Positions 1 to 3,721 of a stretch of DNA of 5,279 nucleotides are shown piece by piece. Source of the stretch: a bacterium (lineage in GTDB: Bacteria > CAIJMQ01 > JAADFP01). Below the pieces are notes generated by a model. The model made no database searches. It saw only the letters and a program-made list of their open reading frames with translations, and was not told the origin of the DNA. Every line of letters begins with the position of its first letter. The first letter of the stretch is position 1. The DNA is taken from positions 1-5,279 of the forward strand of contig JALUVB010000296.1 of assembly GCA_027021085.1 (NCBI GenBank). Reading direction: 5' to 3'. Made by a program: the position numbers and the translations under genes.

Positions 1-18
1 CTTATAGGACTTATAAAT
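1..18. repeat. Weak 9-base direct repeat at the window edge
   Basis: Two adjacent 9-base units both begin CTTATA (1-9 and 10-18) and agree at 6 of 9 positions. This may be the tail of a longer short-period array that starts before the window, or chance. It lies just upstream of the ribosome binding site of the first gene. No promoter is claimed here: the TATAAAT-like string has no convincing -35 partner inside the window. Confidence 0.25.
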
Positions 19-24
19 AGCCTT

Positions 25-31
25 GAGAGGA
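25..31 (+). promoter_or_regulatory. Ribosome binding site of the GspK-like gene
   Basis: GAGAGGA lies 7 bases upstream of the ATG at 39, a normal Shine-Dalgarno match and spacing. It supports the start at 39 over the next in-frame ATG at 108. Starting at 108 would remove the prepilin leader and the Gly that must precede the cleavage site. Confidence 0.65.
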
Positions 32-38
32 AGAACAA

Positions 39-3000
39 ATGAAAAGACCTTGTCACTCTGTACCCTTATCACTTTATCACTTTCTCCCTTTGTCATCTTC
101 TTCCGGTATGGCTTTAATCATCGTGGTGGCTATAATGGCTATCCTCTCGGCCCTGGCTGCTTCCTTTGCTTTCCAGATGAGGATGGAAGAAAAAGCAGCC
201 TTTAATTACCTAAAAGCCTCCCAGGCCAGGGTTATTGCCCTGGGGGGAGTGAATCTTGCCATCGGATTTCTGGAAGAAGACCGGGCAGATACAACAGATA
301 CCATGGATACAAACCAGGATATCTGGGCGCAATCTCCCTTTGACGGTAGCTGGGTAGAAATGAAGAATAAGAACGGAGAGCTTGTGGGCGTTTACAGTGC
401 AAGGATAATAGATTTAAACGGTAAGATAAATATCAACACCGCGGGAAATCCCAGCGGAACCTCCCCTGCCTGGACTCCTTACTGGGTGAGTTTCAAGGAT
501 TTCCTGGATGCAGGAGGCTGGAATCTGCATGGCAGTACTGCAAATACCCTGGCACAAAATTTACTCGCCTATCGTTATGGAACTGATGGCGTAGCAGGTA
601 CCTCAGCAGATGACGATGCTGATTCTATTATCCTGGATACTGACGGTATAGATAACAATGCCAATGGGAGCATAGATGAAAGTGAAGAAGGAGTAAATGA
701 ACCGGATGAATTCGTTTTCTGGAAGCCGTACCTGGATACTTCTGCCGGGCTAAATGCCGATACTCCCTTCATTGACCGGGAAGAGATACAGAAAGTTGCC
801 GGAATTAAGGGAACCAGCTACAACATTTACGACAGTATTGCTCCATTTATCACCCCTTACTCCCTGGACCTGGATATCAACGACTCCGGGGTTAATCGGG
901 TGAACCTGAACCTGGCAGAGTCTTCGGTGATCGATACTGTGCTCCTGGAAGAGGGTATAGGCTCAGATACCATGGCTTTGCAGCTGGCGGCCAATATTGC
1001 TGATTACCGGGACAGGAACTCCTATGCCACCGTGCTTTACGATAAAAACGGGAACAAATACTACGGAGTGGAAGGCATCCAGATAAACGAAGTAATGCCC
1101 CGAACCTGGGTAAAATTCAGGACGAGTGGTGCTGCACAATCTGCAGGAGTAATGAGTATTGTTTCCAATGATGGATGGTCAATCAATGGAGATTATATTT
1201 CTACTGGAGGTATAGGAACAAATGGCTTCAAGATCCATCTTAGATACGGGGATGCAAAATTGAAGAAGGGAAAATATTTATTGGCTGTATACTGTGGAGG
1301 AGCAACCGGGAGGATAGATATAGGCTGGGATGGTGATAATGATAATAATCTTACCTGGGATGACAACGGAGGAAATGGCTATCTACCTGATGCTAATGGA
1401 TGGATAAAGATAAACGTTGATGTGACAGCTGACCCGGGAGAAAGTGACTTAGATATTGGCTTCAGGGACCATGACGGGGGTGTGAGTGAACAGGATGCAT
1501 GCCGGGTTTACTACTTCATCCTCTCCCAGCAGTCCCAGTATATGGAACTTGTAAACTTAAGTCCGCGGGATATTGATTTAAGCGGCTGGATGGTGCAGGT
1601 TTATAATAACTCGGGAACCATTTCCCGGGGGTATTTGCCGGCAGGCACTGTTATCCCGGGAAGGGGTAAAGACCTTTCCCAAGACCCCTCCTTCCTGGTC
1701 CTGGTGGACCGAAAGGACACGACATCGCCTGAAAAGAGAACAGGCGATAATACCTCTTACGAAGCCCTTTTCGGGAACGACTCCGGCACCTGGGGAGATG
1801 CAGCAGGAGAAACCTATCCGGTAGTAGAATTGACTCCCGACCCTGCACTTTCCGGCTTAAGTGGCTGGACAAACGCTCCCGCCCTGTTCTTCCATGCGGA
1901 TGACTGGGACCATGCCTCCGGGGGGCCTGCCACAGAGTGGAATGAGGCAGGGGAAGGAGATACTATAATTATCTACGATGATAATCTCAACCCGGTGTGT
2001 GTGAGCTATATCACGCCGGGAGAATATAGTATGGGAGACAGCATCCTGGCTTTTACAGCTTTGGAGAAAGAAGACCCTACTCAACCTAATTCTAATAGTA
2101 AATGGGGAAGCAGGTTAACCACAGTGAGTAATGAAAATACCACCCTTCCAGAGGATGGTTCTTTTGCTCATGATGAAAAACGGGGAGTCCCGACGGCTAT
2201 TCTGGCTTCGCCCGGCAGTTTTAATTCCTCTGCCAACCAGGGCTCGACGAGCTTTACTGATTTCCTGGTCAAGGATAACCCCTTTGCCAGCGTGGGAGAG
2301 CTCTGGAGAGTAAAAGGAGAGACGGAAAGGGGCGCGAGCGAGTGGCAGAGAATCTACCAGATAAACACCGGTGGCGGCAGCGATGACTATCTCCTGGCCC
2401 GCCTGCCGGATAGATTCACGATTAGCGAGAAGAGATTGGAAGCAGAGCAGTCCCTATACAGGGACAGGGACATCTCTCCCTCCTCTCCGGGATTGCAGCC
2501 GTTCAGTGACAATCCGGCAAACTCCTCCAGCGAGTGGGTATATGACCATACCGATCCCTATGGCAACGAGATAGATGCCTCCCATCCTGATACTCCCTTC
2601 CTTACCCCTTACTACTACACCTCTTCCACTGACCAGGCTACCTGGGCCTGGGGAGCGCAGGAAAGAATTTCCCCGGATACTGCTGTTTATAACCTTTATA
2701 TCCTGGGACTTAAAGATGCTCCCCTGGAAATCTCTGTCAATACCTGGAATGAAGGTTTCAGGGAAACCAACTGGGTTTACCTTATCCCGGGGGCTGATGG
2801 CATTGCCTATTACGGTGAAGTAGTAGTGGGGGATTCTGATACGGAGCATGCTCTATCCGATACCTATATCCAGGTTTCTGTGAGAAAGCCGGGGAGTTTT
2901 GCTAATGCCACCTATTTTGATGGAATAGTGCTGGCTCCTCTCCCCCGCATCTACGGAAGGATAAATGTAAACACTGCCGATACGGAAGTCTTGCATGCCT

Positions 3001-3284
3001 TACCAGGATTCAATAACAATAATCTGGTAAATTATATAGTCAGCAGTCGGCCTTACCGGAGCGTAGGCTATGTATGGAATGCATTGAGAAATTATTATTC
3101 TTCTTCTCTTACCGCTTCCCGGTCCTTCTCCCGCCTTTCCAACCTGATTACTGTGCGGGGCAAGCTCTTCCGTATTGAGGTAACAGCAAGGTATATAAGA
3201 GATACCAACGGAAACGGCAAATACGATGAAGGGCAGGATGAAGTGCTGGGCGAATATACCATATCCACCATTTATGAACGATGA
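39..3284 (+). CDS. Giant GspK-like minor pseudopilin with inserted lamin-tail-like and beta-rich domains
   Basis: This is a 1081-residue protein related to GspK, the minor pseudopilin at the tip of the type II secretion pseudopilus; classical GspK is roughly 300-350 residues. A 23-residue leader ends in Gly23, followed by Met24 and a hydrophobic helix (24-45, MALIIVVAIMAILSALAASF). This is the prepilin peptidase pattern, without the Glu5 of major pilins, as is normal for GspK. The core includes IIDLNGKININTA (123-135), an Asp/Asn-rich possible Ca-binding stretch (200-217) before NEPDEF, and a second Asn-rich strand (VNLNLA, 288-293). INEVMP (349-354) and YMELVNLSPRDIDLSGW (501-517) look like the first strands of a lamin-tail domain, split by a beta-rich insert (about 355-498). 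A further beta-rich segment (about 830-970) precedes GRINVNTADTEVLHALPG (973-990), a ComEA/GspK-like helix-hairpin-helix, and a DTNGNGKYDE loop (1055-1064). The frame is intact. The GspK family call is fairly firm; the insert domain names are tentative, and no symbol is given because of the unusual length. Confidence 0.8.
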   Translation: MKRPCHSVPLSLYHFLPLSSSSGMALIIVVAIMAILSALAASFAFQMRMEEKAAFNYLKASQARVIALGGVNLAIGFLEEDRADTTDTMDTNQDIWAQSPFDGSWVEMKNKNGELVGVYSARIIDLNGKININTAGNPSGTSPAWTPYWVSFKDFLDAGGWNLHGSTANTLAQNLLAYRYGTDGVAGTSADDDADSIILDTDGIDNNANGSIDESEEGVNEPDEFVFWKPYLDTSAGLNADTPFIDREEIQKVAGIKGTSYNIYDSIAPFITPYSLDLDINDSGVNRVNLNLAESSVIDTVLLEEGIGSDTMALQLAANIADYRDRNSYATVLYDKNGNKYYGVEGIQINEVMPRTWVKFRTSGAAQSAGVMSIVSNDGWSINGDYISTGGIGTNGFKIHLRYGDAKLKKGKYLLAVYCGGATGRIDIGWDGDNDNNLTWDDNGGNGYLPDANGWIKINVDVTADPGESDLDIGFRDHDGGVSEQDACRVYYFILSQQSQYMELVNLSPRDIDLSGWMVQVYNNSGTISRGYLPAGTVIPGRGKDLSQDPSFLVLVDRKDTTSPEKRTGDNTSYEALFGNDSGTWGDAAGETYPVVELTPDPALSGLSGWTNAPALFFHADDWDHASGGPATEWNEAGEGDTIIIYDDNLNPVCVSYITPGEYSMGDSILAFTALEKEDPTQPNSNSKWGSRLTTVSNENTTLPEDGSFAHDEKRGVPTAILASPGSFNSSANQGSTSFTDFLVKDNPFASVGELWRVKGETERGASEWQRIYQINTGGGSDDYLLARLPDRFTISEKRLEAEQSLYRDRDISPSSPGLQPFSDNPANSSSEWVYDHTDPYGNEIDASHPDTPFLTPYYYTSSTDQATWAWGAQERISPDTAVYNLYILGLKDAPLEISVNTWNEGFRETNWVYLIPGADGIAYYGEVVVGDSDTEHALSDTYIQVSVRKPGSFANATYFDGIVLAPLPRIYGRINVNTADTEVLHALPGFNNNNLVNYIVSSRPYRSVGYVWNALRNYYSSSLTASRSFSRLSNLITVRGKLFRIEVTARYIRDTNGNGKYDEGQDEVLGEYTISTIYER
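50..97 (+). repeat. Degenerate 8-base tandem repeat inside the pseudopilin leader
   Basis: Six consecutive 8-base units run from 50 to 97: TTGTCACT, a divergent unit at 58-65, TTATCACT twice (66-73 and 74-81), TTCTCCCT and TTGTCATC. The two central copies are identical. The array encodes most of the 23-residue prepilin leader (Leu/Ser/His-rich), ending about ten bases before the codon of mature Met24. It may be an ordinary low-complexity leader or a spreading repeat captured as leader sequence. Confidence 0.5.
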
Positions 3285-3287
3285 AAT

Positions 3288-3322
3288 TAGACTATAGACT
3301 TTAGACCATAGACATTAGAACA
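3288..3322 (+). repeat. Upstream heptad array (TAGACNN x5)
   Basis: Five head-to-tail 7-base units start 3 bases after the stop codon of the GspK-like gene. The first four are TAGAC followed by TA, TT, CA and AT; the fifth is the variant TAGAACA. The array ends at the ribosome binding site of the next gene. Bases 3295-3319 are complementary to 3697-3721 beyond that gene: 21 Watson-Crick pairs, 2 G-U pairs and 2 mismatches, with an unbroken 11-base core (3303-3313 against 3703-3713). Confidence 0.9.
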
Positions 3323-3326
3323 GGAG
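3322..3326 (+). promoter_or_regulatory. Ribosome binding site abutting the start codon
   Basis: AGGAG directly touches the ATG at 3327 with no spacer, where 5-9 bases are usual. No upstream in-frame start exists: the frame is closed by TAG at 3309-3311, inside the heptads. The next in-frame ATG (codon 33) would remove the conserved N-terminal helix. Either initiation here is weak or it relies on something other than a normally spaced Shine-Dalgarno site. Confidence 0.4.
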
Positions 3327-3701
3327 ATGGCGAGAAATTATAGAAAGATAAAGGCATGGCAATTGGCCGATGAGTTAGCTTTGGCTATATACAAAACCAC
3401 GAAAGAATTCCCAAAGAGAGAAATGTGGGGGATAACTTCCCAGATGAGGAGAGCAGCAGTTTCAGTGCCGGCTAATATAGTGGAAGGGTCTGTGCGAAGA
3501 CATAAAGATGAGTACCTTCAATTTTTGTATATAAGTGCTTCCTCATTAGCTGAGTTAGGTTATTATATTAAATTCTCAAAAGATATAGGATATTTCAGGG
3601 AGGGAGAGTTTGAAGAACTTTATGAAAAGTACGAAGAAACAGCCAAGGTGCTACGGGGGTTGATTACTTACATTGAAAATACTAAAAAGTCTAAAGTCTG
3701 A
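3327..3701 (+). CDS. Four helix bundle protein (23S rRNA intervening-sequence protein / S23 family)
   Basis: This 124-residue protein matches the family's usual length of about 115-130. Family landmarks are in order: an N-terminal YRKIKAWQLADELALAIY helix (5-22), FPKRE (28-32), then S38-Q39, R41-R42, S46, P48, N50 and E53-G54 within SQMRRAAVSVPANIVEG (38-54), followed by a helix containing SSLAEL (72-77) and a long C-terminal helix. Relatives include proteins encoded by 23S rRNA intervening sequences and the pentameric Avd accessory protein of diversity-generating retroelements. Their biochemical role is mostly unknown; Avd binds a reverse transcriptase and RNA. The 'ribosomal protein S23' name is historical and should not be read as a ribosomal function. 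No reverse transcriptase or rRNA is in the window. The last residues (KSKV and the stop) are encoded by the downstream heptad array. G+C counted by hand in 3541-3660 is 45 of 120, against 67 of 120 in 2461-2580 and 62 of 120 in 4381-4500, suggesting a different origin from its neighbours. Confidence 0.92.
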   Translation: MARNYRKIKAWQLADELALAIYKTTKEFPKREMWGITSQMRRAAVSVPANIVEGSVRRHKDEYLQFLYISASSLAELGYYIKFSKDIGYFREGEFEELYEKYEETAKVLRGLITYIENTKKSKV

Positions 3702-3721
3702 GGTCTATGGTCTGATGTCTA
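3687..3721 (-). repeat. Downstream inverted heptad array (NNGTCTR x5)
   Basis: Five consecutive 7-base units have GTCTA or GTCTG preceded by AA, AA, AG, TG and AT. Read on the minus strand they are TAGACNN or CAGACNN, the same family as 3288-3322. The first two units overlap the end of the four-helix-bundle gene and its TGA (3699-3701). Where the sequence departs from the upstream array, two changes are of the type that keeps a G-U pair. A short AATTTT follows (3721-3726), so a terminator-like role is conceivable but unsupported, because the paired arms are far apart. Confidence 0.9.

Follow-up and report, generated by a model that had tools for sequence, protein, structure and literature searches.

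Genes and features of the locus

The window (the whole stretch of 5,279 nucleotides analysed) holds an S23 gene in the gap between two protein genes, with inverted arrays of 7-base tandem repeats at its two ends (Table 1). The left array begins 3 bases past the TGA of the upstream gspK open reading frame (ORF) and reads TAGACTA TAGACTT TAGACCA TAGACAT TAGAACA from 3288; the right array reads AAGTCTA AAGTCTG AGGTCTA TGGTCTG ATGTCTA. An earlier note on this DNA had described five heptads per side, with no further sequence between arrays and gene. On the right all five NNGTCTR units were perfect; on the left four TAGACNN cores were perfect, but the fifth unit reads TAGAA. The arrays do not abut the gene as supposed: about six bases containing AGGAG lie between the left array and the ATG, and the gene overlaps the right array, because its stop codon TGA (3699-3701), together with the last codons, falls within that array.

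Pairing of the arms at 3295-3319 and 3697-3721 was recomputed and agreed exactly with the note (21 Watson-Crick and 2 G-U pairs among 25 positions). A longer inverted repeat (3284-3319/3690-3725) spans 36 nt with 78% complementarity. As RNA, the arms are paired in the minimum-energy fold (z -2.9). The note's description of the cassette as a free-living version of a 23S rRNA intervening sequence (IVS) gained no support as a statement of descent; the Rfam search of the window gave zero matches and so no rRNA.

Table 1. Coordinates of the features annotated in the window.
Feature	Position	Strand	Remarks
3' end of a second, different S23 gene (LIGLINSLERKNK*)	1..42	+	Bulk of gene at end of contig C79 (L002/L135)
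Right array of second S23 element	43..95	-	7-8-mers of another type (TTATCACT, TTTGTCAT)
Host operon gene upstream, T2SS GspK-like	39..3284	+	Match below curated cut-off; context only
Left terminal array	3288..3320	+	TAGACNN heptads, four perfect and a degenerate fifth (TAGAA)
S23/23S_rRNA_IVP four-helix-bundle gene, 124 aa	3327..3701	+	PF05635, TIGR02436
Right terminal array	3687..3721	-	Five NNGTCTR units, the left array inverted; covers gene 3' end and stop codon

The same gspK is flanked by both S23 elements; the second (window 1-103 and the end of C79) lies directly upstream, and in the annotated gspK ORF its right array is read as an N-terminal leader. Contig C79 overlaps the contig of the window (C296) and is its neighbour. 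The two S23 copies of the window carry different heptads; heptads were likewise unlike between S23 copies within genome G004.

The S23 protein

Profile matches were obtained above the curated cut-offs for PF05635 (119.6 bits, cut-off 33.8, E 9e-35) and TIGR02436 (113.2 bits, cut-off 24, E 6e-33). The AF2 model of the protein (pLDDT 96) has the four-helix fold, and the nearest PDB structures were 2GSC (best) and 2RLD, followed by Avd in complexes of diversity-generating retroelements (DGRs). These matches of profile and structure place the protein in the S23/23S_rRNA_IVP family, the family encoded in 23S rRNA IVSs, as the note had it. Foldseek matched Avd in 8UB7 and 4DWL (probability 1.00, TM about 0.73-0.79), and the match to the bAvd profile was weak (E 3e-7, below the curated cut-off). 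The 2GSC and 2RLD entries contain five chains each and, going by these solved relatives, the S23 protein is probably an oligomer. The 2GSC protein is XCC0516 from Xanthomonas campestris, a species bearing published GGGAATC heptad arrays.

Searches of Pfam and NCBIfam returned S23/Avd-type matches only, with no recognised nuclease, transposase or recombinase motif. Near-invariant positions among 150 S23 sequences were S46, N50 and E53, at 1.00 each when rounded to two decimals, with Q39 and E76 at 0.99 and R42, Y22, G54 and S73 at 0.97. Q39, S46, N50, E53 and E76 could belong to an active site, but their conservation would also suit a structural role. A congener carries a 91% identical copy at the same site, against which the window gene is under purifying selection (dN/dS 0.11).

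S23 loci across phyla

About 170 homologous loci were compared in samples of mixed phyla, Bacteroidota and Cyanobacteriota, and inverted tandem 7-8-mers typically bracketed the S23 genes in every sample tested. For 80 homologues, flank self-similarity at lag 7 was 0.385 upstream and 0.350 downstream (control 0.258), with further peaks at lag 14 and weaker ones at 8 and 16 where controls were flat, and the median inverted-repeat score was 18 against 9 for mismatched flanks. These homologues had been selected by similarity to the window protein, and the comparison was therefore repeated on family-wide samples taken evenly from two phyla, in which lag 14 peaked too, with lags 8 and 16 weaker and controls flat. 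Values at lag 7 were 0.333/0.320 for 30 Bacteroidota genes (control 0.256; inverted score 15.5 vs 10) and 0.384/0.410 for 30 Cyanobacteriota genes (control 0.268; inverted score 22 vs 10). In the pooled flanks the median score was 16 for 150 S23 genes and 9 for 257 neighbouring ORFs (Mann-Whitney p about 1e-29). The signal is broad, yet many arrays must be short or degenerate, because only 19% of the 150 genes exceeded the 99th percentile of the control.

Heptads of the kinds TAGAC, GCCTGAA, GGATTAA, GGACNAC, ATACAGG, GGGAGTA and AGTCAGG were read in the flanks, and repeat sequence tracks the S23 protein clade, not the host phylum. The TAGAC cassette accompanies proteins of 64-91% identity in genomes labelled in their records as Caldisericota, Omnitrophota, Deltaproteobacteria, TA06, Dehalococcoidia and Syntrophaceae. 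Across 93 loci, k-mer similarity of the flanks climbed from 0.05 to 0.15 with protein identity above about 50%, whereas control DNA 400 bp away rose more weakly, from 0.05 to 0.08 (Mantel, 0 of 1000). The arms share a common polarity, the upstream one being the purine-richer in 81/91 loci.

S23 genes were present in 114/148 Bacteroidota genomes, with up to 16 copies per genome, and in 46/98 cyanobacterial genomes, the latter with numerous fragments of the gene and copies that bear stops, which a mobile gene would be expected to leave. Judging by eye from start sequences and one downstream ORF per locus, non-plasmid S23 genes seem often to lie beside sugar-nucleotide or polysaccharide genes (L058, L076, L078, L085, L088, L134).

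Filled and empty sites in relatives

At site 1, the arrays and gene are present in plasmid C of Trichormus variabilis ATCC 29413 and in Scytonema NIES-4073, and four compared plasmids of 97-98% identity are empty. The empty sequence is AAAAAGTAATTAACAAATAAATATG and the filled one AAAAAGTAAT/AAATCAGAATTCAG...GAGTTCTTCTTT/GTAATTAACAAATAAATATG; the junctions therefore define a 5-bp target duplication, GTAAT, around an insert that contains both arrays plus the gene. At site 2, Nostoc ATCC 53789 (filled) was compared with pC052_B of Nostoc C052, and a 5-bp duplication, TTCTA, was read. Arrays and gene were also gained together between cas10 and cmr3 (site 3; Picosynechococcus PCC 7003 filled, PCC 7002 empty) and between nrdB and nrdA (site 4; Nostoc edaphicum filled, compared with Calothrix), with diverged junctions in both cases. 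Target duplications were called by direct reading of junctions and were clean at two sites only; elsewhere divergence of the flanks blurs the junctions, those of L185, L186 and L190 being too diverged for a duplication to be read.

Empty target sites held no heptads, and arrays and gene were gained in relatives as one unit of about 420-430 bp. Three elements of about 80% identity (L172, L185, L188) occupy three different sites. Filled and empty sites with target duplication, which define a transposable element, were thus found for the cyanobacterial relatives, and a recognised encoded transposase or recombinase was absent by Pfam and NCBIfam. The note's supposition that the element is mobile gained support from cassettes of such anatomy, which have empty sites and 5-bp duplications in plasmid relatives and sit, as supposed, in operon gaps. 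No empty site was seen at the window's own locus, where the sole congener compared has the gene at the same place.

A decayed S23 cassette was observed at plasmid site 1 in Nostoc sp. C052 (L179:650-780). In two plasmids with the same insertion, the left array was about 14 bp longer in one (L172:2948-2988 vs L180:649-675), so array length changes after insertion. S23 cassettes were also seen inside CRISPR operons, at cas10/cmr3 (L173:1959-2388) and cas6/cas4 (L189:1282-1963).

Dispersed arrays lacking the gene

The pattern TAGACNNTAGACNNTAGAC gave 328 three-unit matches (165+163) in the window's genome and 0 for the mirrored control. Together with the flank scores of the 150 S23 genes, these counts put the pattern far beyond chance. 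On 19 contigs, which were picked for carrying arrays, 52 arrays were found beyond the window's pair, mostly of exactly five units; 50/52 lay outside ORFs, though ORFs cover 87% of these contigs. The genome hence contains dispersed intergenic tandem 7-mers of the sort that define heptanucleotide STRR arrays. Their number was extrapolated from matches per array to roughly 160, and only two S23 genes are present, one with other repeats. TAGAC arrays occur in composite islands with AGTNANC, GTAGCGR, AACTNAC and GATACAG heptads (read by eye; L113-L131), which also include the hairpin CTGTCATGCCTGCGAAAGCAGGCATCCAG. Some islands are present or absent relative to the congener, as at L122:1230-1533, where about 300 bp stand against 55 bp at L158:15630-15684.

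Five heptad patterns were counted in ten genomes, and the result was mostly diagonal: genomes are enriched for gene-less copies of their own arrays. TAGAC gave 328 matches in its own genome, 29 in the Dehalococcoidia genome of L037, 2 in G004 and 0 in the other test genomes. Counts were 44 in Desulfacinum and 2 elsewhere for GGATTA, 243 in Okeania and 2 elsewhere for AGTYAGG, and 16 in its Verrucomicrobia genome (two places) and 4 elsewhere for GGACNAC. GCCTG gave 13 in Schekmanbacteria, 3 in Desulfacinum and 135 in Okeania, the last being the one large off-diagonal value; the tested Okeania S23 copy uses another heptad.

Array load was taken as period-7/8/14 arrays per 100 kb in unselected stretches. 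Genomes with S23 carried more than those without in Bacteroidota (3.9 vs 0.27 per 100 kb, p 0.018, small sample) and in Cyanobacteriota (20 vs 4.5 per 100 kb, p 0.086, small sample), and other repeat periods were equally frequent with and without S23. In the window's class, two S23-less genomes gave 0-1.2 and two S23-bearing genomes 10-20; values for G000 and G001 are not comparable, because their stretches were chosen for arrays. The note had considered that heptads might occur genome-wide with no link to this gene family. They are genome-wide; they are not unlinked, since both the enrichment for own heptads and the load track S23.

Interpretation and alternative explanations

The feature in the window is probably a complete minimal mobile element, made up of an S23/IVP gene and terminal inverted arrays of a 7-8 bp tandem repeat, with an Avd-like protein that recognises the terminal heptads. 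An S23 oligomer would recognise its own heptads at both ends, would bring these ends close to each other, either in DNA or in an RNA whose ends are paired, and may promote insertion into intergenic gaps, perhaps with the help of the host's cleavage or repair enzymes. Arrays without the gene would be remnants of the element or non-autonomous derivatives, and the same protein could still act on them. A position just behind a stop codon in an operon could provide read-through expression at little harm to the host. Counting against this reading are the window's own copy, which is without an empty counterpart (one congener compared), and the presence in its genome of about 160 arrays (extrapolated) for two S23 genes, one of which has other repeats. 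So do the restriction of clean target duplications to two sites, the protein's lack of any recognised nuclease, transposase or recombinase motif, the GCCTG arrays of Okeania and the small samples behind the load comparison.

Short target duplications and terminal repeats are a usual signature of DDE-type transposition. The 5-bp duplications and repeats described here would fit a MITE-like, non-autonomous cassette whose heptad ends are moved in trans by a host transposase, and a role of S23 as passenger or stabilising cargo would suit a protein with no recognised catalytic domain. Such a cassette is nonetheless unlikely: across phyla the sequence of the ends varies with the S23 clade, which recognition of the ends by S23 would predict; S23-less genomes have few period-7 arrays; and the cassette ends are tandem 7-8-mers, which are not known from IS termini. 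Less probable still, by a clear step, is a parasite acting at the RNA level in the manner of 23S rRNA IVSs, with paired arms, excision by RNase III, spread by reverse transcription and S23 as an Avd-like partner of the RNA or the reverse transcriptase. In its favour, 23S rRNA IVSs encode a protein of this family and end in a 28-bp stem at which RNase III cuts (PMC4990558), the arms of the cassette are paired in the RNA structure prediction, and the S23 fold matches Avd of the DGR reverse-transcriptase complex. However, when seven lineage genomes, including the window's (assembly 94% complete), were searched for a reverse transcriptase with PF00078, none was detected, although five of the seven carry S23 genes; three control genomes gave matches. 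This speaks against the mobility as RNA entertained in the note, and inserts that lie outside rRNA with 5-bp duplications must have been integrated as DNA.

Arrays grown by slippage, or regulatory or terminator sequences adjacent to the gene by coincidence, are very improbable. Array length does differ between copies at one site (L172/L180), and heptad tracts without known function occur in many genomes (PMC4692102, PMC4679880), but empty targets are heptad-free, both arrays arrive with the gene, and the arrays are inverted across the gene and specific to S23 compared with 257 neighbouring ORFs. Chance or slippage alone was ruled out by the empty sites without heptads.

The reading of the cassette as a minimal element recognised by its own S23 protein may extend further. 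It is conceivable, at somewhat less than an even chance, that a large unrecognised class of minimal elements with tandem-heptad ends has S23/IVP proteins as its moving enzymes or recognition factors, that most dispersed heptamer arrays of bacteria (cyanobacterial STRRs, perhaps also the Xanthomonas and Beggiatoaceae arrays) are remnants or non-autonomous offspring of these elements, and that 23S rRNA IVSs are special cases that landed in rRNA.

Comparison with known systems

The 23S rRNA IVS of Coxiella burnetii contains an S23p ORF and has a 28-bp terminal stem cut by RNase III (PMC4990558). The cassette resembles IVSs, which are deemed selfish and are patchily distributed (PMC4990558), in its S23 family, its length of about 430 nt and its complementary, long-stem ends. 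IVSs occupy helices of 23S rRNA, from which RNase III excises them; the cassette lies between protein genes and not inside a 23S rRNA gene, and it has tandem-heptad ends, 5-bp target duplications in relatives and dispersed gene-less arrays. The fold of S23 is common to Avd/bAvd of DGRs, with a weak sequence match; DGRs, however, diversify genes rather than move, and their reverse transcriptase gene was not detected in the window's genome or the other lineage genomes, seven in all.

Like the cassette, REPIN/RAYT systems and BIMEs have short motifs in inverted pairs, many scattered copies without a gene, mosaics, and one partner gene with the same motif on its flanks. The REPs themselves are palindromic and are ascribed to Y1 transposases (PMC3116915, PMC2817692), whereas the motif of the S23 cassette is a tandem 7-mer and its protein a four-helix bundle without a Y1 domain. 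MITEs are similarly small and intergenic, with terminal inverted repeats and short target duplications, but are gene-less derivatives of a known transposon, and no parent transposase has been identified for the cassette.

Intergenic tandem 7-mer arrays, hundreds per genome, are also found as the heptamer repeats of Cyanobacteria (STRR), Xanthomonas and Beggiatoaceae, and the cyanobacteria compared here carry S23 cassettes that end in such arrays. Published examples are 186 GGGAATC heptad arrays in Xanthomonas campestris (PMC4692102) and TAACTGA heptamer repeats in Beggiatoaceae (PMC4679880); in those papers, unlike here, the arrays are tied to no gene family or mobile element.

The S23 cassette is placed in a new category because each established kind considered fails in a defining feature that was tested: it is not in rRNA (IVS), has no transposase (IS), no reverse transcriptase (DGR), and no palindrome or Y1 enzyme (REPIN/RAYT). 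On a stricter reading, the IVS could be counted as the parent kind, of which the cassette would then be a variant. No paper linking S23 to heptads was found in the open-access literature, on which the claim of novelty rests, subscription literature being outside the search.

Significance

Heptamer tandem repeats are over-represented in scattered bacterial genomes and were previously unexplained; the very widespread S23/IVP proteins formed a family without a function. The two are joined here: the heptads are the ends of cassettes, the cassettes are gained as units, and the type of repeat follows the protein. In a published screen for CRISPR associations (FLSHclust), 23S rRNA IVP appears just in a figure legend (PMC10910872); the cas10-cmr3 cassette of PCC 7003 may explain its place among the novel CRISPR-module associations (PMC10910872). 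Culturable cyanobacteria allow a direct test, with Picosynechococcus PCC 7002 set against PCC 7003. S23 cassettes give the 7-base repeats dispersed over many bacterial genomes a first explanation.
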